DNA of 27,442 nucleotides from Thermoanaerobacterales bacterium UBA4880 (GTDB lineage: Bacteria; Bacillota; Thermoanaerobacteria; Thermoanaerobacterales; UBA4877), in assembly GCA_002399285.1 (NCBI GenBank), contig DHDI01000021.1, positions 1 through 27,442 on the forward strand. The letters run 5' to 3'. Shown here piece by piece: positions 4,919-27,007 of this stretch. Under the pieces are notes generated by a model that made no database searches, was not told the origin of the DNA, and saw nothing but the letters and a program-made list of their open reading frames with translations. Each line of letters begins with the position of its first letter. Position 1 is the first letter of the stretch. The translations under genes and the position numbers were made by a program.

Positions 4919-5806
4919 ATGGCTATTTTTAAGGGTTCTGGCGTCGCACTGGTGACGCCTTTTACTGCCGGCGGCGTCAATTATGAGGTTTTGGATAAAC
5001 TTCTGGACTTTCATCTGGAAAACTCCACCGACGCCATAATAGCATGCGGTACTACCGGCGAGGCATCGACCATGACCGATGAGGAAAAGAGTAAGGTCAT
5101 TGAGTTTACGGTAAAAAAGATAAAAAATAAAATACCGGTCATAGCCGGCACCGGCTCGAACGATACCAAGCACAGCATAGAAATGAGCAAAGAGGCTGAG
5201 AGACTCGGAGCAAACGCCCTGTTGGTGATAACTCCATACTATAACAAGACGACGCAGAAGGGTCTTATCGAGCATTTTACAAAGATAGCCGACTCGGTAA
5301 ACATCCCGATAATTATATACAATGTGCCGGGCAGGACGGGACTCAATGTGCTGCCTCAGACCTTAGCGGAGCTCAAAAAGCATCCCAATATAGCGGGTGT
5401 TAAAGAGGCAAGCGGCGATATAAGCCAGATCGCAGAAGTAGCGCGACTGTGTGGAAATGATTTTGCCATATATTCGGGAAACGACGACCAGGTGGTGCCG
5501 ATCATGTCGCTGGGCGGACTGGGAGTTATCTCCGTCACCGCCAACATAATGCCCAAAGAGGTACATGGAATAGCCGCCGCTTTCCTTGAAGGCGATGTAA
5601 AGAGAAGTTGTGAACTTCAGCTGAAACTCAATCCGTTAAACAAAGCAATGTTTATAGAGGTAAACCCGATACCCGTAAAGACGGCAATGAACCTGATAGG
5701 AATGGACGCGGGGCCGCTCAGGCTGCCTTTGACCGATATGGAACCTACAAATTTAAATATTTTAAAATCAAGATTATCCGAATATGGTTTTAAAATAAAA
5801 GGTTAA
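4919..5806 (+). CDS. dapA: 4-hydroxy-tetrahydrodipicolinate synthase
   Basis: Condenses pyruvate with aspartate semialdehyde, the first committed step of the lysine/diaminopimelate pathway. The 295-residue TIM-barrel protein shows GTTGEA (threonine pair of the proton relay), YNVPGRTG (catalytic tyrosine and substrate arginine) and GVKEASGD (Schiff-base lysine). A first ATG at 4913 overlaps the asd stop but is only 2 nt from AAGGAGG. The ATG at 4919 has 8-nt spacing and gives the typical [15 protein letters not shown] start. It is tightly coupled to asd. Confidence 0.97.
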
Positions 5807-5822
5807 TTTTCGAGGTGCAGAT

Positions 5823-6578
5823 ATGCTGAAGATAATAATACAGGGAATAAACGGTAAAATGGGTAAGGCCCTCCTCGAAATGCTTGAGGGCAGTCAAAAA
5901 CATGAGGTAGTGGCTGGAATAAGCAGGAATACGGAAACGCCGAACGGCATACCTGTCTATAGCTCATTGAATGACACGGCAGAGGCTGCAGACGTATGCA
6001 TAGACTTCTCCAATCATGCCGCCGTACATAGTCTGCTGCATGGAGCTATAGACAAAAGGATGCCCCTCGTAATATGTACCACCGGTTTTTCAGATGAGGA
6101 GATTACCGAAATAAAAAAGGCCTCGGCTATAATACCGGTATTTCAGTCGTACAATACTTCCATCGGCGTTGCCGTCATGGACTCCCTTGTAGCGGCAGCC
6201 TCTAAACTGCTTAAAGATTATGATGTTGAAATAATTGAGGCGCATCATAATCAAAAGCAGGATTCACCCAGCGGTACGGCCGTAATGTTGGCAAATACGA
6301 TAATGGAAAATACCCCTGAAAGGGATATCATAAAATATGGCAGACATGGTCATGAAAAGAGAGCCAAGGATGAAATAGGCATTCATTCCATAAGGGGAGG
6401 AAGTATCGCCGGTGAACATTCGGTGATATTCGCAGGAGACGGAGAGATCGTTGAGATAAAACATACGGCACTGTCGCGGGATATTTTTGCGCGGGGCGCA
6501 ATAGCAGCCGCAGAATTTATTGTCGGCAGGCCGCCGGGCCTATACGGAGTAAAAGACCTTATAAGGGAGGACGCATAA
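5823..6578 (+). CDS. dapB: 4-hydroxy-tetrahydrodipicolinate reductase
   Basis: NAD(P)H-dependent reductase that makes tetrahydrodipicolinate from the DapA product. The 251 residues include the dinucleotide-binding motif GINGKMG near the N terminus, CTTGFS, and the substrate-binding and catalytic block [15 protein letters not shown] with its His-His and Lys. The length fits the family. It lies 16 nt after dapA and 1 nt before dapH. Confidence 0.97.
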
Positions 6579-6579
6579 T

Positions 6580-7281
6580 ATGATAACGGATGCCTATGAA
6601 CTGGCAAAATATATCGGCCGGGCCAAAAAGAAAACGCCGGCCAAAGCATATATAAGCGGAGATTTAAATGGTCTCGATTTTGGCGGGATAAGAACGTTCG
6701 GCAGCGGAAACTTTTGGCTGATGATCGGAGAACATAGCGATATCAGTGCCTTTATCGAAGGCCACAGGTATAGGATATCCGACGTATATATAGAGACGGA
6801 CAGACGAAATTCCGCCCTGCCCCTCCTCGACACGGCGGGACTTGACGCCCGCATCGAACCGGGCGCAGTTATCAGGGAACAGGTATCCATAGGAAAAAAT
6901 TCAGTGATCATGATGGGAGCAGTGATAAATATAGGAGCGGTGATAGGCGGCGGCACCATGATAGATATGAACGCCGTGATAGGAGCGCGGGCAGAAATAG
7001 GAGCAAGCTGTCATATAGGCGCCGGTGCTGTGATCGCCGGCGTGCTAGAACCTCCCAGTGCCTCACCGGTCATCATAGGTAATAACGTCCTCATAGGGGC
7101 CAATGCCGTCGTACTGGAAGGCATCGGCATTGGCGAGGGCGCCGTGGTGGCCGCAGGCTCCGTCGTCACAAAAGACGTACCTCCCCATACCGTCGTTGCA
7201 GGCAGCCCGGCCGTAATCATAAAGGATGTAGACCGAAAGACAAGGGATAAGACAAAGATAATGAATGATTTAAGAAAATAG
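6580..7281 (+). CDS. dapH: Tetrahydrodipicolinate N-acetyltransferase
   Basis: Acetyl-CoA-dependent enzyme of the acetylase branch of diaminopimelate synthesis. The 233-residue protein has an N-terminal DapH-type domain (about 1-80) followed by many left-handed beta-helix hexapeptide repeats such as IGKNSV, IGAVIG and IGARAE, ending in the loop [20 protein letters not shown]. The N-terminal domain and size favour DapH over the succinylating DapD. It is the last gene of the operon, and its stop overlaps the start of a bidirectional terminator. The later steps of the pathway (aminotransferase, deacetylase, dapF, lysA) are not in this window. Confidence 0.94.
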
Positions 7282-7303
7282 GCCGAAAACCGGCCTATTT
7301 TTA
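7277..7303. terminator. Bidirectional terminator between dapH and cobO
   Basis: The hairpin pairs AATAGGCCG (7277-7285) with CGGCCTATT (7291-7299). A T run follows on the plus strand, and a shorter TTTT on the minus strand. It overlaps the 3' ends of both convergent genes. Confidence 0.85.
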
Positions 7304-7831
7304 AAATTCTATTCCCTTTCTTGCAGGCAACCCCTTTTCAAAGGGATGCTTGATCATCTTCATCTCCGTGACCAGGTCCGCCGCATCCAGGATCTGCTGC
7401 GGCGCATACCTCCCCGTAAGTATCAGCTCCACATTCTCCGGCTTGTTTTTGAGGAAATCGCATACCTCTTCAACGCTCAAAAGCTTATTATATAGGGCAA
7501 GCATTATTTCGTCCAGAATGATTATATCGACATCGCCGTTTCTACATAGCTCCTTGGCAAAATCAAAGGCCCTGTGCTCGCACCTTTTCATCAGCTCTTT
7601 TTCCTCATCATTTGCCTCCCAGAAGAACTTTTTGCTCTCCTCAAAACGGTATACCTTGAAATTCCCGGCAAATTTCTCCAAGGATTTCAATTCCCCCGTC
7701 GGCGTGGCCTTTAAAAATTGTATCATGGCAACTTTGAAGCCGTCGCCTACCGCACGGATTCCCAGTCCGACAGCCGCCGTGGTCTTTCCCTTTCCATCTC
7801 CCGTATATACCTCTATAATACCGTTCTTCAT
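7301..7831 (-). CDS. cobO: Cob(I)alamin adenosyltransferase, CobO/BtuR type
   Basis: Transfers the adenosyl group of ATP to the cobalt of corrinoids to make adenosylcobalamin. The 176 residues start with the unusual P-loop YTGDGKGKTTA (9-19), which is diagnostic of CobA/CobO/BtuR. They also contain DIIILDEI (Walker B-like) and LILTGRYAP. The frame runs up to a GTG at 7840, but that codon is part of the ribosome site. The ATG at 7831 is 8 nt from AAAGGGG and is chosen. No other cobalamin genes are adjacent, so it may serve salvage of corrinoids. Confidence 0.93.
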   Translation of the reverse strand: MKNGIIEVYTGDGKGKTTAAVGLGIRAVGDGFKVAMIQFLKATPTGELKSLEKFAGNFKVYRFEESKKFFWEANDEEKELMKRCEHRAFDFAKELCRNGDVDIIILDEIMLALYNKLLSVEEVCDFLKNKPENVELILTGRYAPQQILDAADLVTEMKMIKHPFEKGLPARKGIEF

Positions 7832-11566: not shown

Positions 11567-13003
11567 ATGGCCTGGGTTTTGATTTTGTTGGTGCTATTTG
11601 CAGTTTGCTTCCTATACCTGAAGTTTTATGACGACAAGGAGCTGTCGCCTGTCGCCGTGCCTGCATCCAAGAACAAGGAAAAGGACCAGAACAGACCTCC
11701 CACCACTTTTAAGGACGTGGCAGGTCTGGATGAAGTAATAGAGGAACTGCATGATCTGGTCGACTATATGAACAATACTCAAAAGTACAAAGCCCTTGGT
11801 GCAAAATTTCCAAAAGGGATAATATTCTATGGGCCTCCCGGCACCGGTAAAACCCTGCTTGCCAGCGCGCTGGCCGGCGAAACAAAAGCCGTATTTTACC
11901 CGGTAAGCGGCTCGGAGTTTGTGGAAAAATACGTAGGCGTAGGCGCCAGCAGAATAAGGGCCCTGTTTCAAAAGGCGCGGAAGAGCGCTCCCAGCGTGAT
12001 ATTTATCGATGAGATCGACGCCGTAGGCAGCCGCAGAAACATAGACAACAACTCTGAAAAGGACCAGACATTAAATCAGCTCCTTGTTGAGATGGATGGT
12101 TTTAATTCCAATGAGGATACCGTAATAGTCATCGGAGCAACCAACCGGCTGGATCTGCTCGATGAGGCGCTGCTGCGGCCGGGCCGTTTTGATCGGCAGA
12201 TATATATCGGCCATCCCAACCTCAGAGCTCGGGAGGAGATACTGCGCGTCCATACCAAGAACAAACCCTTGGAGCCCGCCGTAGATCTTAAGAAGCTGGC
12301 CTCCCGGACATACGGCATGACGGGCGCCCACCTTGCATCTATAGCCAATGAGGCAGCCATATTGGCCGTGAGAAGGAACAAGATGCACATAGGCAACGAT
12401 GAATTTGATGAGGCAATAGAAAGGGTAATAGCGGGTATAGAAAAGAAGAATGCGGACATAATCGAGAAGGAAAAACTCATGGTGGCATACCATGAGGCCG
12501 GTCATGCATTGATCTCCAGCCTGCTTGAAGTCAACTCGGTGGGGAAGATATCCATAAAGCCCCGGGGCCAGGCCCTGGGCTATGTCCTGAACCTTCCCAA
12601 CGAGGATAACTTCCTTCAAACAAAAACTCAGCTGCTGAACAGGATCAAAGTGCTTTTAGGCGGCAGAGCCGCAGAAGAGCTCATATTCGGCGATGTGACA
12701 TCGGGCGCGCTCAACGACCTTAAAGAGGCCACTCAAATAGCATTGACCATGATCACCTCATACGGTATGAGCGACATAGGCAAAAGGGTATACGAAATTC
12801 AAGACGTAAACGACAATGAGACTGTAAACCGGGAGATAAACAAGATCATGGACCAATGCTATGATGAAACAATGGAAGCGCTCCGCATAAATAAGGGACC
12901 ACTGGAAATGATAGTAAAAAAGCTCCTCGAAAAGGATTCATTGAACGGCGGGGAGATCGAAAACATAATCAAAGAGCATAAGGTCATGGTATCTGCTACC
13001 TGA
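11567..13003 (+). CDS. Short FtsH-like AAA metalloprotease A
   Basis: Membrane-anchored ATP-dependent zinc protease of the FtsH family, 478 residues. One N-terminal membrane segment (about 2-19) is followed directly by the AAA module. Walker A is GPPGTGKT (89-96), the pore loop EKYVGVGAS, Walker B VIFIDEID (144-151) and the arginine-finger region RPGRFDR (204-210). The M41 peptidase domain has HEAGH (309-313) and the third zinc ligand in TSGALNDLKEAT. Canonical FtsH has about 600-650 residues, two membrane segments and an extracytoplasmic domain; that domain is missing here. All catalytic motifs are intact, so it is probably active. The ribosome site GTAGGT is modest. It is followed by mecA, also a proteolysis gene. 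Confidence 0.92.
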   Translation: MAWVLILLVLFAVCFLYLKFYDDKELSPVAVPASKNKEKDQNRPPTTFKDVAGLDEVIEELHDLVDYMNNTQKYKALGAKFPKGIIFYGPPGTGKTLLASALAGETKAVFYPVSGSEFVEKYVGVGASRIRALFQKARKSAPSVIFIDEIDAVGSRRNIDNNSEKDQTLNQLLVEMDGFNSNEDTVIVIGATNRLDLLDEALLRPGRFDRQIYIGHPNLRAREEILRVHTKNKPLEPAVDLKKLASRTYGMTGAHLASIANEAAILAVRRNKMHIGNDEFDEAIERVIAGIEKKNADIIEKEKLMVAYHEAGHALISSLLEVNSVGKISIKPRGQALGYVLNLPNEDNFLQTKTQLLNRIKVLLGGRAAEELIFGDVTSGALNDLKEATQIALTMITSYGMSDIGKRVYEIQDVNDNETVNREINKIMDQCYDETMEALRINKGPLEMIVKKLLEKDSLNGGEIENIIKEHKVMVSAT

Positions 13004-13920: not shown

Positions 13921-15387
13921 TTACGCGGCCACGCTCTTTAAAGAATTTCTCAGCATGTCCCCGGTTATGCTCTCTTCCTTTAAAATTATATCGGACAGGT
14001 ATAAAATTGCATCCCTGTTGCTTTCAATTATGCAGTGCACATCTTCTTCAAGATTCTTTATGATCTCCGATACCGCCATGCTCAAATCTCTTTTCGGTAT
14101 ATCGTTCTTGCTGATTATCCCCAGCTTCGACATGCCCGAGTATATGATATCCTTGGCATATTTTATTGCCTGTTCGAAATCATTGGATGCACCCGTACTT
14201 CTGTCACTCAATATAATTTCTTCGGCCATGGCTCCGCCAAGGCATACCTTTATTTCCTTTTCCAGTTCTTCCTTAGTGTAAAGATAATGATCATCTTTCT
14301 CCGTCTGCCTTACGAATCCGAGGGCATTGCCCCTGGGAGCAATGGTGACGTTAGCCACGCTGCCAGGCATAAGCGTTTCAATGACCACGGCGTGCCCGGT
14401 CTCATGTATGGCGACCCGTTTAAGTTCATCGGGCGTCGGCTTTCTATCCAATTTTTCACCCATGATGACCTTATCGACTGCTTCCGTAAGATATTTTTGC
14501 ATAATGATCTCCGATTTATCACGCAGCGCCAATATGGCCGCTTCATTTGTCAGCGACTCCAAATGCGCGCCGGAAAACCCGAACGTATCCTGCGCTATGG
14601 CTTCCAGATCCACATCGGGAGCCAGCGGCTTTCCCTTGGTATGAATATTGAGTATTTCAAGCCTTCCCTTTTTATCCGGCAGGTCGACCCTTACCTGTCT
14701 GTCAAAACGGCCGGGCCGCAGCAGCGCTTCGTCCAGCATATCCATTCTGTTGGTCGCCGCGATCACCAGTAACTTTATGTCATCCTCCTGATTTGCCCCG
14801 TCCATCTCTACGAGAAGCTGATTTAAAGTCTGATCATACTCCATATGACTCTCATTGCTTCCCCTCTTTACGCCGATTATCTCGATCTCGTCGATGAAGA
14901 CCACAACGCCCTTTTTCCCCTGTCTGGCCGCTTCTGCCTTTGCCGACTCGAACAGCTTTCTTACCCTTTGAGCACCTACTCCGGCATATACCTCTATGAA
15001 TTCACTGCCCGAGGAAGCCACAAACGCCGAATCGGTATATGACGCCGCCGCCTTAGCCAGCAGCGTCTTCCCAGTTCCAGGAGGTCCCCATAGCAGTATT
15101 CCCTTGAGAGGTCTTATACCCAGCTTTTCGATCTCCTTATCATGTATGATAAAATCCAGCGCTTCTTTCAATTCCCTGATGGCAGAGTTCTGCCCCCCGA
15201 TATCTTCAAACTTAACCGTACCCACATCATTTACAGTCTTGAGGTTACCGCCGACCTTACCGTCCAGCAAATAGTTAAGCATAAACAGCATAGCCCCAAT
15301 GAATATTAAAGGGGTAATATCGAAACCCAATATAGCTAGAAATACAGTTACGGCTACCGCAGAGCCTATCAATACCTCCCTAATCAT
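13921..15387 (-). CDS. Short FtsH-like AAA metalloprotease B
   Basis: A second FtsH-family protease, 488 residues. Two hydrophobic segments (about 5-21 and 25-42) are joined by only a few residues, so the extracytoplasmic domain is absent. The AAA module has GPPGTGKT (101-108), the pore loop EVYAGVGAQ, Walker B VVVFIDEIE (161-169) and RPGRFDR (224-230). The peptidase domain has HETGH (328-332) and the zinc aspartate in TGASNDFEQAIKYA. It is only partly similar to protein A (for example IDEIEI in place of IDEIDA and HETGH in place of HEAGH), so the two are old paralogues. The ribosome site AAGGGGGG precedes the ATG. Its start overlaps the end of a small membrane-protein gene by 8 nt, implying coupled translation. 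Confidence 0.92.
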   Translation of the reverse strand: MIREVLIGSAVAVTVFLAILGFDITPLIFIGAMLFMLNYLLDGKVGGNLKTVNDVGTVKFEDIGGQNSAIRELKEALDFIIHDKEIEKLGIRPLKGILLWGPPGTGKTLLAKAAASYTDSAFVASSGSEFIEVYAGVGAQRVRKLFESAKAEAARQGKKGVVVFIDEIEIIGVKRGSNESHMEYDQTLNQLLVEMDGANQEDDIKLLVIAATNRMDMLDEALLRPGRFDRQVRVDLPDKKGRLEILNIHTKGKPLAPDVDLEAIAQDTFGFSGAHLESLTNEAAILALRDKSEIIMQKYLTEAVDKVIMGEKLDRKPTPDELKRVAIHETGHAVVIETLMPGSVANVTIAPRGNALGFVRQTEKDDHYLYTKEELEKEIKVCLGGAMAEEIILSDRSTGASNDFEQAIKYAKDIIYSGMSKLGIISKNDIPKRDLSMAVSEIIKNLEEDVHCIIESNRDAILYLSDIILKEESITGDMLRNSLKSVAA

Positions 15388-20846: not shown

Positions 20847-22235
20847 TTAGCCGGCAATTTTCCTCTTTTTATAGCGTGTAAAGATCGCATTGCCTATCAA
20901 TCCGAATATGATCGGCCCTCCCGCAACCTCCGACTCATAGATCACTATGTCCCTTGTGCCGAGGCCTGCCAAGGGTATCAGTGGAAGGACTATAGCCAGT
21001 ATTACCGATATGAAGCCCAATGCCGCCACCAAATAAGCACCCGCCATGCCGCCCGGTACGGTAAACGGCCTTTTTATATCTTTGTATTTCCTTCTTAAAG
21101 TAATAAATGCGCCAAACATAAATAAATAGGGAATAAAATATGTAATGGTCGTCATCATTACTAATACCTCATATATATTTTCCACCGACGGCAAAAAGCT
21201 TGTGAATACCACTATCGCACTTACCAATAACGCCTGGATGATCATTGCGTTCTGCGGCATCCCGTCTTTATTCAGTCTGGTAAAATACTCCGGCATGATT
21301 CCACTTTTAGTACTTTCAAAAAACATTTTTATCGGTCCCACGGACCAAACGCTGACCCCTCCAAGATTTCCTATAAAGAGCATGATCACTATCGCAGGAA
21401 CTAAAGCGGGCAAATCAAGTTCTCTGCCGATCACTTCGATAGCCTGCATTATTCCGCTTGCCGCACCGATTTTATCGGGAGAAACCATGAACGTGATCGA
21501 CATGGTCCCCACGATATAGATGACAGATATGATAGCTCCCGATATGAACATAGCCAAGGGAAACGTCCTTTGCGGGTTTTTAGTCTCGCCCGCCAGTGTG
21601 GGAGTCAATTCCATACCGGCCATTGCGAACATTATCGTTGATAAAAATGACACGTTTGCCATTGATCCAAAGTTAGGCATCATATTTGGCAGGGAATATC
21701 TTACCGGCATCGGCTTTTTCCAAACAAATACGGCCACAAAAGACAGTATTATCAGGACTAACCCGGGAAGTATGGTCCCGAATATGCCACTTAAATCTGA
21801 AAGCCACTTGCTGATGTTCATACCGTTAAGATTAAGCAGCGTGACACCCCAAAAAATTATCAGTATGACAGCCGAAATGTAAAGCTTATTATTCTGTAAA
21901 TCGGGATTGATCAAATAGGAACCGGTGACCGCGATAAATGTAAGTAAAGAGGGATAATAAAACAAATTATTTGTCCAGTAAAACCACGACGTAATAAAGC
22001 CCCATTTTTCTCCGTACGCCCTCTCGGCCCACACATACAGGCCGCCCTCCTCAGGCCAGGCCGCCGCAAGCTCCGCGGATACAAGCCCGGATGGAATGAA
22101 AAACATGGCTGCGGCAAATATCCAGAATATAACGGCCGACGGGCCGTAACTCGCTGCGATCGGCAGCCATCTCAGGCCGATTATTGCCGTCACGTTCATC
22201 AAAACTATATCCCATAGACCCATCGTCTTTTTCAT
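20847..22235 (-). CDS. APC-superfamily amino-acid permease
   Basis: Integral membrane transporter of 462 residues with about 12 hydrophobic segments. It starts MKKTMGLWDIVLMNVTAIIG, the usual first helix of APC permeases. It contains the loop AAWPEEGGLYVWAERAYG and later TPTLAGETKNPQRTFP, as seen in the amino-acid antiporter group that includes glutamate:GABA exchangers. The substrate cannot be inferred. The frame extends upstream to 22286, but the ATG at 22235 follows AGGAAGG with good spacing and fits the family. No partner decarboxylase is nearby. It is the last clear chromosomal gene before the accessory region. Confidence 0.9.
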   Translation of the reverse strand: MKKTMGLWDIVLMNVTAIIGLRWLPIAASYGPSAVIFWIFAAAMFFIPSGLVSAELAAAWPEEGGLYVWAERAYGEKWGFITSWFYWTNNLFYYPSLLTFIAVTGSYLINPDLQNNKLYISAVILIIFWGVTLLNLNGMNISKWLSDLSGIFGTILPGLVLIILSFVAVFVWKKPMPVRYSLPNMMPNFGSMANVSFLSTIMFAMAGMELTPTLAGETKNPQRTFPLAMFISGAIISVIYIVGTMSITFMVSPDKIGAASGIMQAIEVIGRELDLPALVPAIVIMLFIGNLGGVSVWSVGPIKMFFESTKSGIMPEYFTRLNKDGMPQNAMIIQALLVSAIVVFTSFLPSVENIYEVLVMMTTITYFIPYLFMFGAFITLRRKYKDIKRPFTVPGGMAGAYLVAALGFISVILAIVLPLIPLAGLGTRDIVIYESEVAGGPIIFGLIGNAIFTRYKKRKIAG

Positions 22236-22676
22236 ATATATCCCTTCCTCTGCATAATGAGCGATATAAACAATGGGACGCATCATATCAACAAGTCTTA
22301 TCTATTTATGCCCTATTTTGACAAAAAAAATCACCTATCTTTACTGACAATAGTGTGATCCGCATTTTCCATGTATTGATTTTATCATATAAAAATATTA
22401 ATGTTCGGAGTGGAATTATAGGACTTGAAAAAACACAGTAATATCAATGGTTTGCAGGCAATCGGCAAGTGGTATTTCCATTAAAAATCTAATTTGAGCA
22501 TAGACGCCGCCCAAAGGAGAGACTATGGGCGGCGTTTCTATATAGACTTTATAAACTAAAATATTGTGTAAACGATTATGTTGGGTCCCCGAGCCCATCG
22601 GTCACATACCTACGTAAATATAATAGGCCGCAGAAATACGCATCAATACATAGATAACCTTATCATTCAAATATGA
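22236..22676. other. Noncoding junction between permease and accessory operon
   Basis: No credible gene is seen in these 441 bases. They contain the permease leader, an AT-rich stretch (about 22290-22410), and the left copy of the accessory-region hairpin (22501-22545). A low-information tail to the nuclease stop follows. A chromosome/element boundary probably lies here, but I could not identify an attachment core or recombinase remnant. Confidence 0.5.
22501..22545. repeat. Left copy of ICE-leader hairpin repeat
   Basis: CGCCGCCC (22505-22512) pairs perfectly with GGGCGGCG (22527-22534). The loop contains AAAGGAGAG, and GTTTCTATATA follows. The sequence matches 25124-25166 in the same orientation, apart from a few substitutions and a 2-nt length difference in the loop. 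The two copies bracket the winged-helix/nuclease operon. Confidence 0.85.
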
Positions 22677-23405
22677 TTATTCTTCGGAACGTTTAAGTGT
22701 TTTACGCTTTTTGGATGGAGCAATCGGATTAATTTTTATAAAAAAGCAATGGATCAAATGACCATTATTATGTATGTCATATATCTCCGTGCCTTGGGCT
22801 GCGACAACAATATTATCTCTCTGAGTATTATCAAAAATAAGATAATAACCTGCGTTATAGCCTTGTGAATCAAGATAGGATGACAACTCGACTATGCCGT
22901 CGTGATAACGCTCTTGATCATGCCATATCTTTGTTTCGATAATCGTTTCTTCTGTTGGATATATTAAATCTGAATTGCCACCGGACATCTGAGCTTCACG
23001 AAAGCCCCTAGGGCGTAGATAAGTTTGTACAAGAGATCGTCCTGTTTCCTCTTGAGGATTTTTCGACACCTGAAAGGCCGGATAAACACTACCCTCAACA
23101 AATACCTTAAAGTTAGATATTGCGGTATATATATCAGGTTTTGCAGGTATGTATGCTTCATTATCGCATATTTCAGTTATTATATTAACCGCCAATTTTT
23201 CCTCATTAAGGTCATTACCCGCCATAAATGATTTGTACTTCTTGAGGGCTTTCTTTATAGCATCAACAGATAGAGTATTATCCTGAAGCATTTTCGCACA
23301 TTGCGAGCCAAAAGCTAAAGCGAATTTTTCGCTTTCAAACACATAGCCTCTCTTATTGCAATAGTCCTGCACTAAACTAATAAGAAACTTCGTGTTATCC
23401 CTCAT
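22677..23405 (-). CDS. Putative PD-(D/E)XK-family nuclease
   Basis: A 242-residue protein, last in the five-gene operon. Residues 119-195 show the layout of the PD-(D/E)XK fold: an acidic helix (E119/E120), GGNSD with D146, then E157-T-K159 in TIIETKIW, and a following helix GIVELSSYLDSQGYNAGYYL. The 'ETKIW...ELSSYL...GYYLIFD' pattern resembles the nuclease domain attached to AAA-ATPase/DUF1703-type proteins. The N-terminal part (1-115) is helical and unassigned, and the C-terminal tail is Lys/Arg-rich (SKKRKTLKRSEE). Its start overlaps the preceding winged-helix gene by 4 nt (ATGA), indicating coupled translation. Nuclease activity is inferred; no methyltransferase or helicase is adjacent. 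Confidence 0.72.
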   Translation of the reverse strand: MRDNTKFLISLVQDYCNKRGYVFESEKFALAFGSQCAKMLQDNTLSVDAIKKALKKYKSFMAGNDLNEEKLAVNIITEICDNEAYIPAKPDIYTAISNFKVFVEGSVYPAFQVSKNPQEETGRSLVQTYLRPRGFREAQMSGGNSDLIYPTEETIIETKIWHDQERYHDGIVELSSYLDSQGYNAGYYLIFDNTQRDNIVVAAQGTEIYDIHNNGHLIHCFFIKINPIAPSKKRKTLKRSEE

Positions 23406-23773
23406 TTTGAAGTTTCCTTTTTTAGCTGCCGTGAAATCTTAAAAATCGTTTCCATCTTTGTATGTTGAAATATTTTGCCACTATTATTATATCTGACTAA
23501 CTCAATTAAATCGAGTTCTTCAAGCCGCTTGGTTTTACCAGTAACAGTAGCATTACTTTTTCCGATTGCTTCTGCAATTTGTTGTTGGGTTTTCGATCCA
23601 TCAACTTCAAGATATACCTGCTTTAAAACTGGATCAAGGCCTAACTGCTCAAGGTAATCGGCAAGCATAGCTTTACCATTTACTCTAAGCAACCGTTCCA
23701 GTGTTCTATCCATAGAATCAACTTTATATTTTATATGGCCGATTGCGGCGCTGAGTTCATCTGATTCTGCCAT
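23402..23773 (-). CDS. Winged-helix protein 4 of the nuclease operon
   Basis: 123 residues. An N-terminal amphipathic helix (about 5-40, with IGHIKYKVDSMDRTLERLL) is followed by a MarR/ArsR-like winged helix (about 48-97: KQVYLEVDGSKTQQQIAEAI, then GKSNATVTGKTKRLEELDLI) and a basic tail. It shares architecture with the other three winged-helix proteins of the operon but is the most diverged. A good ribosome site (GGAGGTG) precedes the ATG. It lies 15 nt after gene 3 and overlaps the nuclease gene by 4 nt, so it may be the subunit that pairs most closely with the nuclease (inference). Confidence 0.82.
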   Translation of the reverse strand: MAESDELSAAIGHIKYKVDSMDRTLERLLRVNGKAMLADYLEQLGLDPVLKQVYLEVDGSKTQQQIAEAIGKSNATVTGKTKRLEELDLIELVRYNNSGKIFQHTKMETIFKISRQLKKETSK

Positions 23774-23788
23774 GCAAACACCTCCTTA

Positions 23789-24094
23789 CTAAAATACTCG
23801 TTTTGGATTCTTTGCCTTACCATTAAGCTCTACGAATTCAATAAGACCAACTTTTTCAAGCTGTACGGCAAACTTCCTGACGGCCTCAGAGGACACTTTA
23901 ACAGTATCGGCAATAACCTTATAAGGGTTTTCTCCGTCAAACATATCATACATTTGTCGTCTTTGGTCAGTCGTAAGATACGTTCTTTCAATATTTTCAT
24001 TGAAACTCTGGAGCTTGTCCTGCGAAAGAATAGTCAAAAGTTTACGAACCTGCGTGAGTTCATCAAGTATTTGCTTTGCAATGTAATCGTCCAT
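23789..24094 (-). CDS. Winged-helix protein 3 of the nuclease operon
   Basis: 101 residues. An N-terminal helix (about 5-38, with KQILDELTQVRKLLTIL) is followed by a winged helix (about 40-90) containing TDQRRQMYDMFDGENPYKVI and SSEAVRKFAVQLEKVGLIEF. The TDQRR-x2-Y-x3-DGE block is nearly the same as in protein 1, showing common ancestry. It ends soon after the wing. Its ATG overlaps the stop of gene 2 by one base (TAATG), with GGAGGTGAGG upstream. Confidence 0.83.
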   Translation of the reverse strand: MDDYIAKQILDELTQVRKLLTILSQDKLQSFNENIERTYLTTDQRRQMYDMFDGENPYKVIADTVKVSSEAVRKFAVQLEKVGLIEFVELNGKAKNPKRVF

Positions 24095-24429
24095 TATCCC
24101 TCACCTCCTTGTTCATCGACACTAATTACAGATAGACCATACTCGGCAGGATCAAATGCTGCCTTAAATCTACCTTTTCGTTGGGCAGGTACTACTATTC
24201 CTTTCAGGGCCCATTGCTTCCAATAACTCGTTATTGTCGATATGGATATTCCGGCCACTTTTGCTATATCACGTGTAGTGTTTTCTCCGTTAGACAACTC
24301 ATAAACAATTTTCCTCGTCTTGTCACTGAGTTCTGTATTAAGAGCAGCCATAATTTGAGGATGGTTAATGAATTTATATATTTTTAGAAATTCAGCAAAC
24401 ATTTCCTGAAGCCGATCATTGTCACCCAT
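24094..24429 (-). CDS. Winged-helix protein 2 of the nuclease operon
   Basis: 111 residues from the ATG at 24429, which follows GGAGGTGGAG; the open frame extends further upstream to 24468 but that part overlaps gene 1 heavily. It has an N-terminal helix (about 5-30, LQEMFAEFLKIYKFI), then a winged helix (about 34-82) with LSDKTRKIVYELSNGENTTR and ISISTITSYWKQWALKGIV. The third helix STITSYWKQW is a plausible DNA-reading helix. The C-terminal tail (83-111) is unique to this member. The start overlaps gene 1 by 8 nt. Confidence 0.8.
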   Translation of the reverse strand: MGDNDRLQEMFAEFLKIYKFINHPQIMAALNTELSDKTRKIVYELSNGENTTRDIAKVAGISISTITSYWKQWALKGIVVPAQRKGRFKAAFDPAEYGLSVISVDEQGGEG

Positions 24430-24784
24430 TGACTCCACCTCCTGCATTAATAATATCGAGCCGAGCATAATATGTAGCGATTTTTGATACGGATTTGCAT
24501 GGAATAAAAGATTTTGACCGTTTACTTACATCAATCAAATCTTTTTCCTGTAATTCCTTGATAAGGAGTTGCACTGTGCGAGCCGAACATCCCACGGCAT
24601 CTGCCAACGCTTGAGAGTCCTTTTCCCCGTCGATAGCCTCATAGATACTACGTCGCTGATCCGTACCAAGAATTTCAGACTGAAATTTCACCAACGCCGT
24701 TGCTTTTATTGTCGAAGTAAGCAACTCCAATTCCGAAAGGATACGTTCCGCAAGGGCTATTAAAGTCTTGTTTTGATCTTCCAT
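24422..24784 (-). CDS. Winged-helix protein 1 of the nuclease operon
   Basis: 120 residues and first gene of the operon. An N-terminal helical segment (about 3-38, with LIALAERILSELELLTSTIK) may dimerise. The winged helix (about 39-88) has TDQRRSIYEAIDGEKDSQAL and CSARTVQLLIKELQEKDLI. A C-terminal extension follows (89-120). The ribosome site GGAGGTG precedes the ATG, and a strong promoter lies about 23 nt upstream. It may autoregulate, since the promoter is directly adjacent to genes for DNA-binding proteins (inference). Confidence 0.85.
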   Translation of the reverse strand: MEDQNKTLIALAERILSELELLTSTIKATALVKFQSEILGTDQRRSIYEAIDGEKDSQALADAVGCSARTVQLLIKELQEKDLIDVSKRSKSFIPCKSVSKIATYYARLDIINAGGGVNG

Positions 24785-24806
24785 ATATTCACACCTCCAT
24801 ATTTGG

Positions 24807-24835
24807 ATTATATATCGTGATCAAAGATTTGTAAA
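24807..24835 (-). promoter_or_regulatory. Promoter of the winged-helix/nuclease operon
   Basis: The minus strand has TTTACA (24835-24830), a 17-nt spacer and a perfect TATAAT (24812-24807). A TGATCA palindrome sits inside the spacer and could be part of an operator. All five genes downstream lack obvious internal promoters or terminators. Confidence 0.8.
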
Positions 24836-25196
24836 TATATTTTGTTGCTGCGGTTGTGCATTTTTTTCGTTTTATTCAATTTTACCAATCCATATGGCTA
24901 TATTATGGCGATTATTAAAAGGAAAATGAATTTAAATGCGACGAAAATCAACTCACAAAAAACAAATTCTCTATTATCTACTGATATTGGGCTTTAAATT
25001 GTTTGTTTGTTCGCGGCGTCTGTTTAAAATAAGTTGTAATTAAAGCGTTTCTAAATGACAGAGATAGGATCGTTCATATCGGTACAGAAGATAAAAAACA
25101 AAAAATAGACTGCCATCCAGATATAGGTGCCGCCCAAAGGAGACTCCGGGCGGCGTTTCTATATAAAACCGCATAGCGGAAGGAGGGATTCTTGCC
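24836..25196. other. Noncoding region between nuclease operon and ICE genes
   Basis: No gene is supported here. The first part is AT-rich and low in information. From about 25050 the style changes, and the right hairpin copy (25124-25166) leads into the GC-rich ICE genes. A TTGTT-type -35 and TAAAAT near 25005-25030 could be an ICE promoter, but this is weak. Confidence 0.45.
25124..25166. repeat. Right copy of ICE-leader hairpin repeat
   Basis: GCCGCCC (25129-25135) pairs with GGGCGGC (25148-25154). The 12-nt loop contains AAAGGAG, and GTTTCTATATA follows. It matches 22501-22545 in the same orientation. It lies about 90 nt before the ParB-like gene, so it is probably the leader of the ICE transcript, possibly an attenuator. 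Confidence 0.85.
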
Positions 25197-25235
25197 GTGG
25201 CCAAGCGAGAGGTTTGGTCTTTTTTTATGCCATGA
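25197..25235 (+). CDS. Possible 12-residue leader peptide
   Basis: A GTG start 9 nt after GGAGGG opens a 12-codon frame, MAKREVWSFFMP, ending in TGA at 25233-25235. The ribosome site of the ParB-like gene (AAAAGGAGG) follows directly. Position and size suggest a leader peptide that couples or attenuates translation of the ParB-like gene. With such a short frame this remains tentative. Confidence 0.4.
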   Translation: MAKREVWSFFMP

Positions 25236-25253
25236 AAAAGGAGGTAAAACTGA

Positions 25254-26540
25254 ATGGCAGACAACAAACAGCCCACGGGCCCCGATGAACATATCACCCC
25301 CGAGGCCACCGCGCCGGATATGCCGGGCCCTATTCCCGAAGCGCAAAAGCCGGAATGGGAAAGGCCGCTTGCGGATTTGGAGGCTGAAAAGCCTACGCCG
25401 CGCCGGGGCCGCTCCCCGAAAGCGGATAAAGCGGAGCCCGCTGCGCCGAGTAAAGAAAAAACGCAGGAGGCGGCAAGGCCCCGCAGGGGCCGCCCGTCTC
25501 AGGTTGACAAGGCGGCCCCCGACGGGGCCAAGCCGCCCAAGCGGGACAAAACGTCCCAAAGTAAAAAAGCCGCCGAGAAGCCTGCCCCCGCCAAGGGGGA
25601 GGCTCCCGCACAGTGGCCGGAAATGCCCCCGGAACCCGCAATCCCGCCCCGTCCTGTTGAGGAAGGCAAGATTGTCTATCTGAAAATGGCCGAACTGCAT
25701 CCGTTCCATACATTCCGCGATCACCCCTACAAGGTGCAGGATGACGCGAAAATGACGGAACTGGTGGGGACGATCAAGGTACACGGCATTATGACCCCCG
25801 CCACCGTCCGGCCCGAAAAGGACGGAAACGGCTATGAGATCATCGCGGGGCACCGCCGCCGCCGTGGTGGTGAGCTTGCCGGTCTTGATGAAATCCCCTG
25901 TATCGTCCGCAACATGACCGACCTTGAGGCTGTCCGGGAAATGAAGATCAGCAACAAGCAGCGCGGCGATCCCCTGCCCAGCGAGCTTGCGAAACTACTG
26001 GATTTGGAAATGGAGGCCATCAAGCATCAGGGAGCCCGCCCCGCCGATATGGACGAAAAGGACGCGGGGAAACGCTCTGCGGAGATCGTCGGTGAAAACA
26101 ACGGCATGAACTACAAAAAGGTCATGCGGTATATCCGGCTCAATTCGCTTGTCCCGGAGCTCCTGAATATGGTGGACGATAAAAAGATGGGATTTATGCC
26201 CGCTGTGGAGCTCTCGTTCATCAGGCCCAAAAATCAGCGGCTTATCGCCGTTTCTATCGAGGGAGAGCAGACTACGCCCTCGCTGTCCCAGGCACAGAAG
26301 CTCCGGGAACTGGATAAGGATGGCAAGCTCAACGGCGACGTGATCGACGGTATTTTAAGCCAGGAGAAAAAGGAGGTAGACAAGGTGATCATTTCTACTG
26401 CGGAACTCAACAATTATTTTGGCAAGGAGGCCACCCCTCGGGAAATGAAGGATCAGATCATCGCCCTGTTGGACGATTGGAAAGCCAAACAGCCGCCCGA
26501 GCTTGCAAAGCCCGAGAAAAAGGCTGATCTGGAAAAGTAA
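25254..26540 (+). CDS. ParB/Spo0J-like DNA-binding protein of the ICE
   Basis: A 428-residue protein. Residues 1-135 form a disordered Pro/Lys/Ala-rich tail with two AT-hook-like blocks (TPRRGRSPK at 48-56 and RPRRGRPSQ at 75-83). Residues 138-235 are a ParB N-terminal domain, with VYLKMAELHP, VHGIMTPATVRP and the box GHRRRRGGELAG (199-210), which stands where CTP-binding ParB proteins have GERR. A helix-turn-helix region (about 265-310, with LVPELLNMVDDKKMGFMPAV) follows, and the C terminus is charged. It probably binds element DNA for maintenance or transfer control. The ribosome site AAAAGGAGG is 8 nt from the ATG. Confidence 0.9.
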   Translation: MADNKQPTGPDEHITPEATAPDMPGPIPEAQKPEWERPLADLEAEKPTPRRGRSPKADKAEPAAPSKEKTQEAARPRRGRPSQVDKAAPDGAKPPKRDKTSQSKKAAEKPAPAKGEAPAQWPEMPPEPAIPPRPVEEGKIVYLKMAELHPFHTFRDHPYKVQDDAKMTELVGTIKVHGIMTPATVRPEKDGNGYEIIAGHRRRRGGELAGLDEIPCIVRNMTDLEAVREMKISNKQRGDPLPSELAKLLDLEMEAIKHQGARPADMDEKDAGKRSAEIVGENNGMNYKKVMRYIRLNSLVPELLNMVDDKKMGFMPAVELSFIRPKNQRLIAVSIEGEQTTPSLSQAQKLRELDKDGKLNGDVIDGILSQEKKEVDKVIISTAELNNYFGKEATPREMKDQIIALLDDWKAKQPPELAKPEKKADLEK

Positions 26541-26550
26541 CCGGGCCCCG

Positions 26551-26576
26551 ACTTCGAGACACTTTGTCCCGAGGAG
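26551..26576 (+). promoter_or_regulatory. Hairpin overlapping a ribosome site, copy 1
   Basis: The stem of CTTCGAGACA (26552-26561) with TGTCCCGAGG (26565-26574) has one mismatch and one G-T pair. Its 3' arm runs into GAGGAGGG, a Shine-Dalgarno sequence. The same 26-nt sequence recurs at 26973-26998 with one change. It may hide the ribosome site or end transcription weakly. Confidence 0.6.
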
Positions 26577-26593
26577 GGCCGCGCCCCTTATAC

Positions 26594-26972: not shown

Positions 26973-26998
26973 ACTTCGAGACATTTTGTCCCGAGGAG
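26973..26998 (+). promoter_or_regulatory. Hairpin overlapping a ribosome site, copy 2
   Basis: The same hairpin as at 26551-26576, with one base changed in the loop. Its 3' arm again includes GAGGAGG (26993-26999), here the ribosome site of the PcfB-like gene. Repetition before two successive genes argues for a shared translational control element in the ICE. Confidence 0.65.
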
Positions 26999-27007
26999 GT
27001 GGTTTGA

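Follow-up and report, generated by a model that had tools for sequence, protein, structure and literature searches.

What is the function of a bacterial operon in which four small genes of helix-turn-helix (HTH) type are followed by a single nuclease-like gene? Such an operon, wA-wB-wC-wD-Nuc, occupies positions 22677-24784 of contig DHDI01000021.1 from Thermoanaerobacterales bacterium UBA4880, the whole 27,442 nt of which we refer to as the window. A sequence-only reading had proposed a candidate undescribed system of four winged-helix paralogues that lie behind one strong promoter and, plausibly as a hetero-oligomeric sensor of DNA or a ligand, control or position a PD-(D/E)XK-like nuclease. 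When eight loci of this kind are compared, it becomes clear that the nuclease is not the constant part of the operon; the trio wA-wB-wC is. We put at about even chances the reading that these loci represent a mobile and modular system of gut Clostridia that resembles abortive-infection systems, and in which a core of HTH proteins controls an interchangeable adaptor-effector pair.

A five-gene set shared by distant loci

The five genes are genuine open reading frames (ORFs) of the minus strand, and their arrangement is that given by the sequence-only reading. wA (24422-24784; 120 amino acids (aa)), wB (24094-24429; 111 aa), wC (23789-24094; 101 aa), wD (23402-23773; 123 aa) and Nuc (22677-23405; 242 aa) are joined, in gene order, by overlaps of 8 nt and 1 nt, a gap of 15 nt and an overlap of 4 nt, and a GGAGG-like or GGAAA ribosome-binding site precedes every start (5/5 genes). 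For wB we chose the ATG with a Shine-Dalgarno sequence; the longest ORF would start at 24468 and encode 124 aa.

Scanning 84,980 species genomes for the nuclease pattern returned six loci, five of which (L001, L003, L004, L005 and L006, all from Clostridia) keep the same five genes in the same order, with Nuc only 30-61% and wC 54-69% identical to the window copies. A profile search of the protein database identified 352 members of the wC family, and for 10 of 16 short-form Nuc homologues, versus none of eight long forms, the longest contig is exactly as long as that of a wC homologue among the best 120 of these 352; the equal size of these contigs suggests that short-form Nuc and wC lie on one contig. 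The co-occurrence of the five genes is thus not by chance. One wC cluster, P0113, comprises 1000 contigs as listed, with Roseburia among the names given by its sources, and no relative of Nuc or wC was found in phages, plasmids or IMG/VR. In L006 (Eubacterium sp. 14-2), wA is interrupted by an in-frame stop (6215-7000); immediately upstream of it, at 5157-6215, is a gene for a YhcG-type (DUF1016) nuclease.

Nuc as a predicted PD-(D/E)XK nuclease

Nuc, the predicted effector of the window operon, comprises a helical N-terminal part (residues 1-84) and a PD-(D/E)XK-like domain (residues ~90-228). Its structure model (predicted local distance difference test score (pLDDT) 82) matches the folds of the nucleases McrC, BstYI, BamHI and BglII, at about 10% identity. 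The residues that had been singled out from the window alone, D146 and E157-x-K159, are invariant together with E119 in 20 aligned Nuc homologues, down to 31% identity, so that both hallmarks of the superfamily, the catalytic D...(D/E)-x-K and the core fold, are found in Nuc. We therefore assign to Nuc a predicted PD-(D/E)XK-like nuclease domain, one that may carry out metal-dependent DNA cleavage.

Sequence databases place this protein less readily. The window Nuc has no match at E<=1 in Pfam, NCBIfam or PADLOC, and in PHROGs only phrog_28498 (E 0.23); a search of PDB sequences with the Nuc profile gave nothing connectable (best E 0.07, Flp recombinase). Aga_Helical-REase (PADLOC 2023) is matched by four of 25 Nuc homologues, the best at 1e-4, and some homologues match Pfam DpnII-MboI weakly. 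The 24 homologues from the protein database fall into 16 short forms (236-250 aa) and eight long forms (335-375 aa) with a different N-terminal half. The L002 locus encodes a stand-alone relative of 355 aa, also with another N-terminal half (6651-7718), and has no match to the wA-wD profiles at E<=0.01 across its 15.7 kb. Long-form nucleases, L002 included, were accordingly dropped as members of the system and are treated as relatives of the nuclease domain only.

Exchange of the fourth gene and the effector

The best-conserved member of the core is wC, and its profile was searched against nine overlapping draws of genomes (391, 397, 345, 51, 197, 121, 118, 95 and 269 genomes). Strong matches were confined to seven genomes (G001, G003, G004, G005, G006, G016 and G167), of which the nuclease scan had already yielded G001 and G003-G006. 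G167 and G016, the other two, contain the regions L037 and L038, and with these the comparison covers eight loci: the window, L001 and L003-L006 in a nuclease form, and L037 and L038 in a membrane-protein form. Thirteen weak wC matches outside the system (E 7e-5 to 9e-4; first four draws) were dropped once all of the ~3-kb stretches had been read, as they resembled generic HTH regulators or unrelated ORFs.

L037 and L038 retain wA-wB-wC, with wC 60% identical to that of the window, and each gene of the trio is present in 8/8 loci, as against 6/8 for wD. The fourth gene in these two regions instead encodes an unrelated 137-aa protein. Its HTH signal is weak (Pfam HTH_27 at E 9e-4, short of the cut-off), and the wD profile does not match it at E<=0.01. 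The fifth encodes a 219-aa membrane protein with four hydrophobic segments, for which there is no Pfam match and no PADLOC family at E<=0.1, and for which searches of phages and plasmids found no relative.

The two forms diverge after wC. Four loci (L004, L005, L037 and L038) have an AbiLi/AbiLii (RloA/RloB) pair that precedes wA by 3-4 nt and shares its strand (in the L037 copy, on which the family search was run, PADLOC AbiLi E 6e-89, AbiLii 3e-19 and Pfam RloB 3e-32); no such pair is present in the stretches read around the operon in the window, L001, L003 and L006. Between L004 and L037, AbiLi is 85%, AbiLii 73%, wA 43%, wB 49% and wC 66% identical, versus 19% for the fourth gene (shuffle z 1.2) and 15% for the effector (z -0.6), so that the break in similarity comes directly after wC. 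Six loci, of both forms (window, L001, L004, L005, L037 and L038), have a 4-nt overlap between the fourth gene and the effector gene; in L003 and L006 the two are separated by gaps of 4 nt and 15 nt, respectively. Taken together, the break and the overlap suggest that these two genes travel as a pair. As L037 and L038 are 90-98% identical, the exchange may have been a single event.

The genes are maintained as proteins. L004 was compared with L005, and L037 with L038, over seven genes each (the two AbiL genes, the four small genes and the effector gene), and the ratio of nonsynonymous to synonymous substitution rates is 0.01-0.21 in every one of these 14 comparisons, as expected under purifying selection. 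Within the wA-wC segments of L004 (6669-7624) and L005 (4666-5621), the HTH halves of wA and wC are near-saturated in silent divergence and the remainder much less diverged; this local burst of silent and replacement changes suggests local recombination.

Could the operon instead encode a housekeeping or DNA-metabolism complex, acting in repair or replication of its host element and taking no part in conflict? The strong conservation of wC would suit such a complex, as would the weak resemblance that the small proteins show, in PHROGs, to HTH families of replication initiation. Its patchy distribution, with strong wC matches in only seven genomes, five of them known beforehand, and the exchange of the effector for a membrane protein both argue against this, and we consider it most improbable.

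The small HTH-type proteins and control of the operon

All four small genes had been read as winged-helix paralogues, and this stands in part. By sequence, a winged HTH (wHTH) match is clear for wD, which exceeds the Pfam cut-offs for HTH_24 (E 4e-6) and MarR (2e-5); wA and wB have only sub-threshold Pfam HTH matches; and wC, with no Pfam match below E 0.03, is a putative member through its homology to wA. The AlphaFold model of wC is poor (pLDDT 58) and too weak to use for its wing, and a PDB sequence search with its profile gave nothing connectable (best E 0.003, outer surface protein A). In profile-profile comparison with hhalign, wA and wC align at E 3e-20 over 93 columns. The remaining pairs score 2e-9 (wA-wB), 2e-8 (wB-wC), 5e-9 (wD-wA), 4e-8 (wD-wC) and 3e-7 (wD-wB) over 47-73 columns, mostly the HTH core; the wD values come from an alignment without the replacement protein of L037 and L038, whose inclusion gave similar values. 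Against the wC and wD profiles, generic HTH regulators from among the weak wC-profile matches reach comparable values (E 5e-6 to 9e-8). The notion of four equal paralogues is therefore weakened: by sequence, wA and wC are clear paralogues whose kinship alone is clearly closer than general HTH relatedness, and wB and wD have at least the HTH core in common.

An alignment of 125 wC sequences shows almost no variation in the motifs QDK, LTT and MYxxFDG or in KxKxPKRxF at the C-terminus. The idea that its recognition helix is a fast-changing specificity element was dropped, as 42 independent close wC pairs show 0.070 changes per site and pair in the helix versus 0.081 overall.

A predicted sigma-70-type promoter, TTTACA-17-TATAAT (24807-24835, minus strand; 11/12 match), lies immediately upstream of wA and is the top match within 22200-25400, and in L001 and L003 similar sequence upstream of the operon aligns with its boxes. 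The total number of promoter-like matches in the same interval (14) is not above that of shuffled sequences (11.0, sd 3.5).

These features bear on the main rival explanation, namely that this is a toxin-antitoxin-like or stress-controlled operon. The small HTH proteins would then be DNA-bound repressors or antitoxins, and derepression or loss of a labile HTH protein would free the nuclease or membrane protein, maintaining the element or killing the cell after damage, with no direct sensing of phage. Antitoxin and toxin genes often overlap, and a fourth gene and effector that are swapped as a pair and overlap by 4 nt in most loci fit this explanation too, as does the passing of the MarR and HTH_24 cut-offs by wD. 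Repression gains mild support from short inverted repeats that precede the operon in L001 and L003; near the window promoter there is only an 8-nt palindrome, which argues mildly against it, as do the near-neutral or acidic isoelectric points of wA-wC (5.5-6.6; 8.8 for wD). There is also a precedent in CapK/CapS, repressors of immune operons that were co-opted into a toxin-antitoxin system (PMC13373217). Four distinct HTH-type proteins kept together would nevertheless exceed the need of a simple repressor, and a role in phage defence is indicated by the AbiL pair that adjoins the operon in half of the loci. On balance, we regard the toxin-antitoxin explanation as rather unlikely.

Mobile elements and other neighbors

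The operon had been placed beside genes of an integrative and conjugative element (ICE), and ICE-type ParB and DUF3801 genes do adjoin it in the window. Mobile genes (TnpV, serine recombinase or ICE-type) lie near six of the eight loci: TnpV in L003, L006 and L038, and large serine recombinases in L004, L005 and L006 (checked against Pfam in L005 and L006). No clear mobile gene was seen at L001 and L037.

This setting raises the possibility of a weapon of one element against another, that is, cargo of a mobile element that works by the same sensor-effector mechanics but is directed at plasmids or rival integrative elements and not at phages. The ParB, DUF3801, TnpV and recombinase genes are consistent with it, and so are the direct repeats that flank the window cassette (see below). 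Most defence genes also ride on mobile elements, however, and the mobile setting therefore does not discriminate between the two. AbiL, the neighbor in four loci, is described as a phage abortive-infection mechanism (PMC10440598), and we judge the element-against-element explanation to be quite improbable.

Two near-identical hairpin-bearing direct repeats of ~45 nt, ~2.6 kb apart (22500-22544 and 25123-25165), bracket the entire cassette and give it the look of a self-contained insertion; the flanks align with a score of 67 versus 50 for the best of 300 shuffles. The cassette has a G+C content of 38.6%; positions 1-20200 have 44.1%, and the ICE-type sequence that follows 25166 has 58.4%. As general borders of the system the repeats were not upheld: direct repeats of at least 24 nt were absent around the operon at L001, L006 and L037, the loci examined, and the hairpin repeats may therefore be specific to the window. 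Their pattern has no match in viral contigs, and the exact 14-mer has none in 46 loci.

Several other features were seen nearby. In L004 (8700-9542) and L005 (6697-7539), a sixth gene starts right after the Nuc stop codon and encodes a protein of 280 aa whose hydrophobic segments lie close to the N-terminus; the L004 copy has no Pfam or PADLOC match except a sub-threshold one to CARDB. The ICE-type stretch of the window contains a 27-nt direct repeat (26551-26577 and 26973-26999; 96%) with a related inverted copy at 25542-25562. Further away, two AAA-protease-like genes identified by ORF reading (11567-13003 and 13921-15387), which we take from their motifs to be of the FtsH-like family, face each other across a short gene, and an ordinary Lysine riboswitch (Rfam RF00168; 3662-3840) lies upstream of apparent lysine-pathway genes.

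Relation to known systems

As the sequence-only reading had supposed, the gene set belongs to no described system that we recognised in PADLOC 2023, Pfam, NCBIfam, PHROGs or the open-access literature searched (CC-licensed papers in PMC), and no PADLOC defence system matched it. Its overall logic is common to modular defence systems, but its component proteins, within the comparisons made, are not, and its role in defence is a proposed one.

The fold of Nuc resembles those of restriction-type nucleases, but its identity to them is low and it has its own helical N-terminal part. No cognate methyltransferase, as the earlier reading had also remarked, and no Argonaute was recognised on reading the ORFs around the operon, no methyltransferase profile search having been made; on this reading the operon lacks the gene pairing of restriction-modification, and the window Nuc itself has no match to Aga_Helical-REase or DpnII-MboI. 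CBASS, Avs and Lamassu are modular sensor-effector immune systems with interchangeable effectors, and they likewise combine a constant part with nuclease or membrane effectors; in contrast, the window form lacks an NTPase, cyclase or NLR, and its constant part is three small HTH-type proteins. Weak PADLOC matches to CARF-wHTH and CasR/Csa3 proteins (best E about 1e-5) are limited to the HTH part of wA, wB and wD, whereas these 101-123-aa proteins have no CARF-sized domain and the NCBIfam Csa3 match is far below cut-off.

DNA-binding-type proteins adjoining immune genes are a further likeness: the WYL protein BrxR is reportedly a regulator of this type beside immune genes, and CapK/CapS is another case (PMC13373217). 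In those cases one or two regulators stand ahead of diverse operons, whereas here four HTH-type genes lie within the operon and one of them is swapped with the effector. The closest named system by neighborhood is AbiL, with which we group pairs of AAA and OLD-TOPRIM proteins such as PARIS, and the proposed abortive-infection logic is shared with it (PMC10440598). AbiL as defined in PADLOC 2023 includes neither the four HTH-type genes nor the effectors, and since the window, like L001, L003 and L006, lacks the pair in the stretches read, the window operon itself is no AbiL system.

A proposed mechanism

A constant HTH trio combined with a variable fourth protein and effector follows the logic of sensor-effector immune systems, which kill or stall the infected cell. 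We propose that wA-wB-wC would form a complex, possibly DNA-binding, that serves as sensor or switch for two genes exchanged as a module. One of these encodes a fourth small protein matched to its effector, and the other the effector itself, which would normally be kept inactive. The fourth protein (wD in the window) would be both adaptor and inhibitor, coupling the trio to the effector and restraining it until the DNA or a product of a phage, or of a rival mobile element, is detected, upon which the effector would be released or positioned. The toxic step would be the cutting of DNA by the PD-(D/E)XK nuclease in the window and damage to the membrane by the membrane protein in L037 and L038. 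Because no methyltransferase accompanies the operon, self-protection would consist in keeping the effector off. In some genomes the AbiL pair, an RloA ATPase with RloB, may be an extra sensor or a second arm.

The sequence-only reading thus keeps its conserved gene set, nuclease-like domain and mobile setting, but has to be revised in that Nuc and the fourth gene are exchangeable and that AbiL joins the operon in half of the loci. More tentatively, and with somewhat less than even confidence, we suggest a new immune class in which a hetero-oligomer of wA-wB-wC is the sensor of invaders and the fourth protein a plug for one of several effectors, the whole also being wirable to an AbiL-type ATPase/RloB pair. 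If this is so, there would be a sharply delimited swap point between wC and wD that is open to direct test, and Nuc would represent a new nuclease family, with the system providing a link between AbiL and other effectors. Small winged-helix proteins, which are commonly annotated as transcription regulators and overlooked, would then be the sensing core of modular defence in gut Clostridia.

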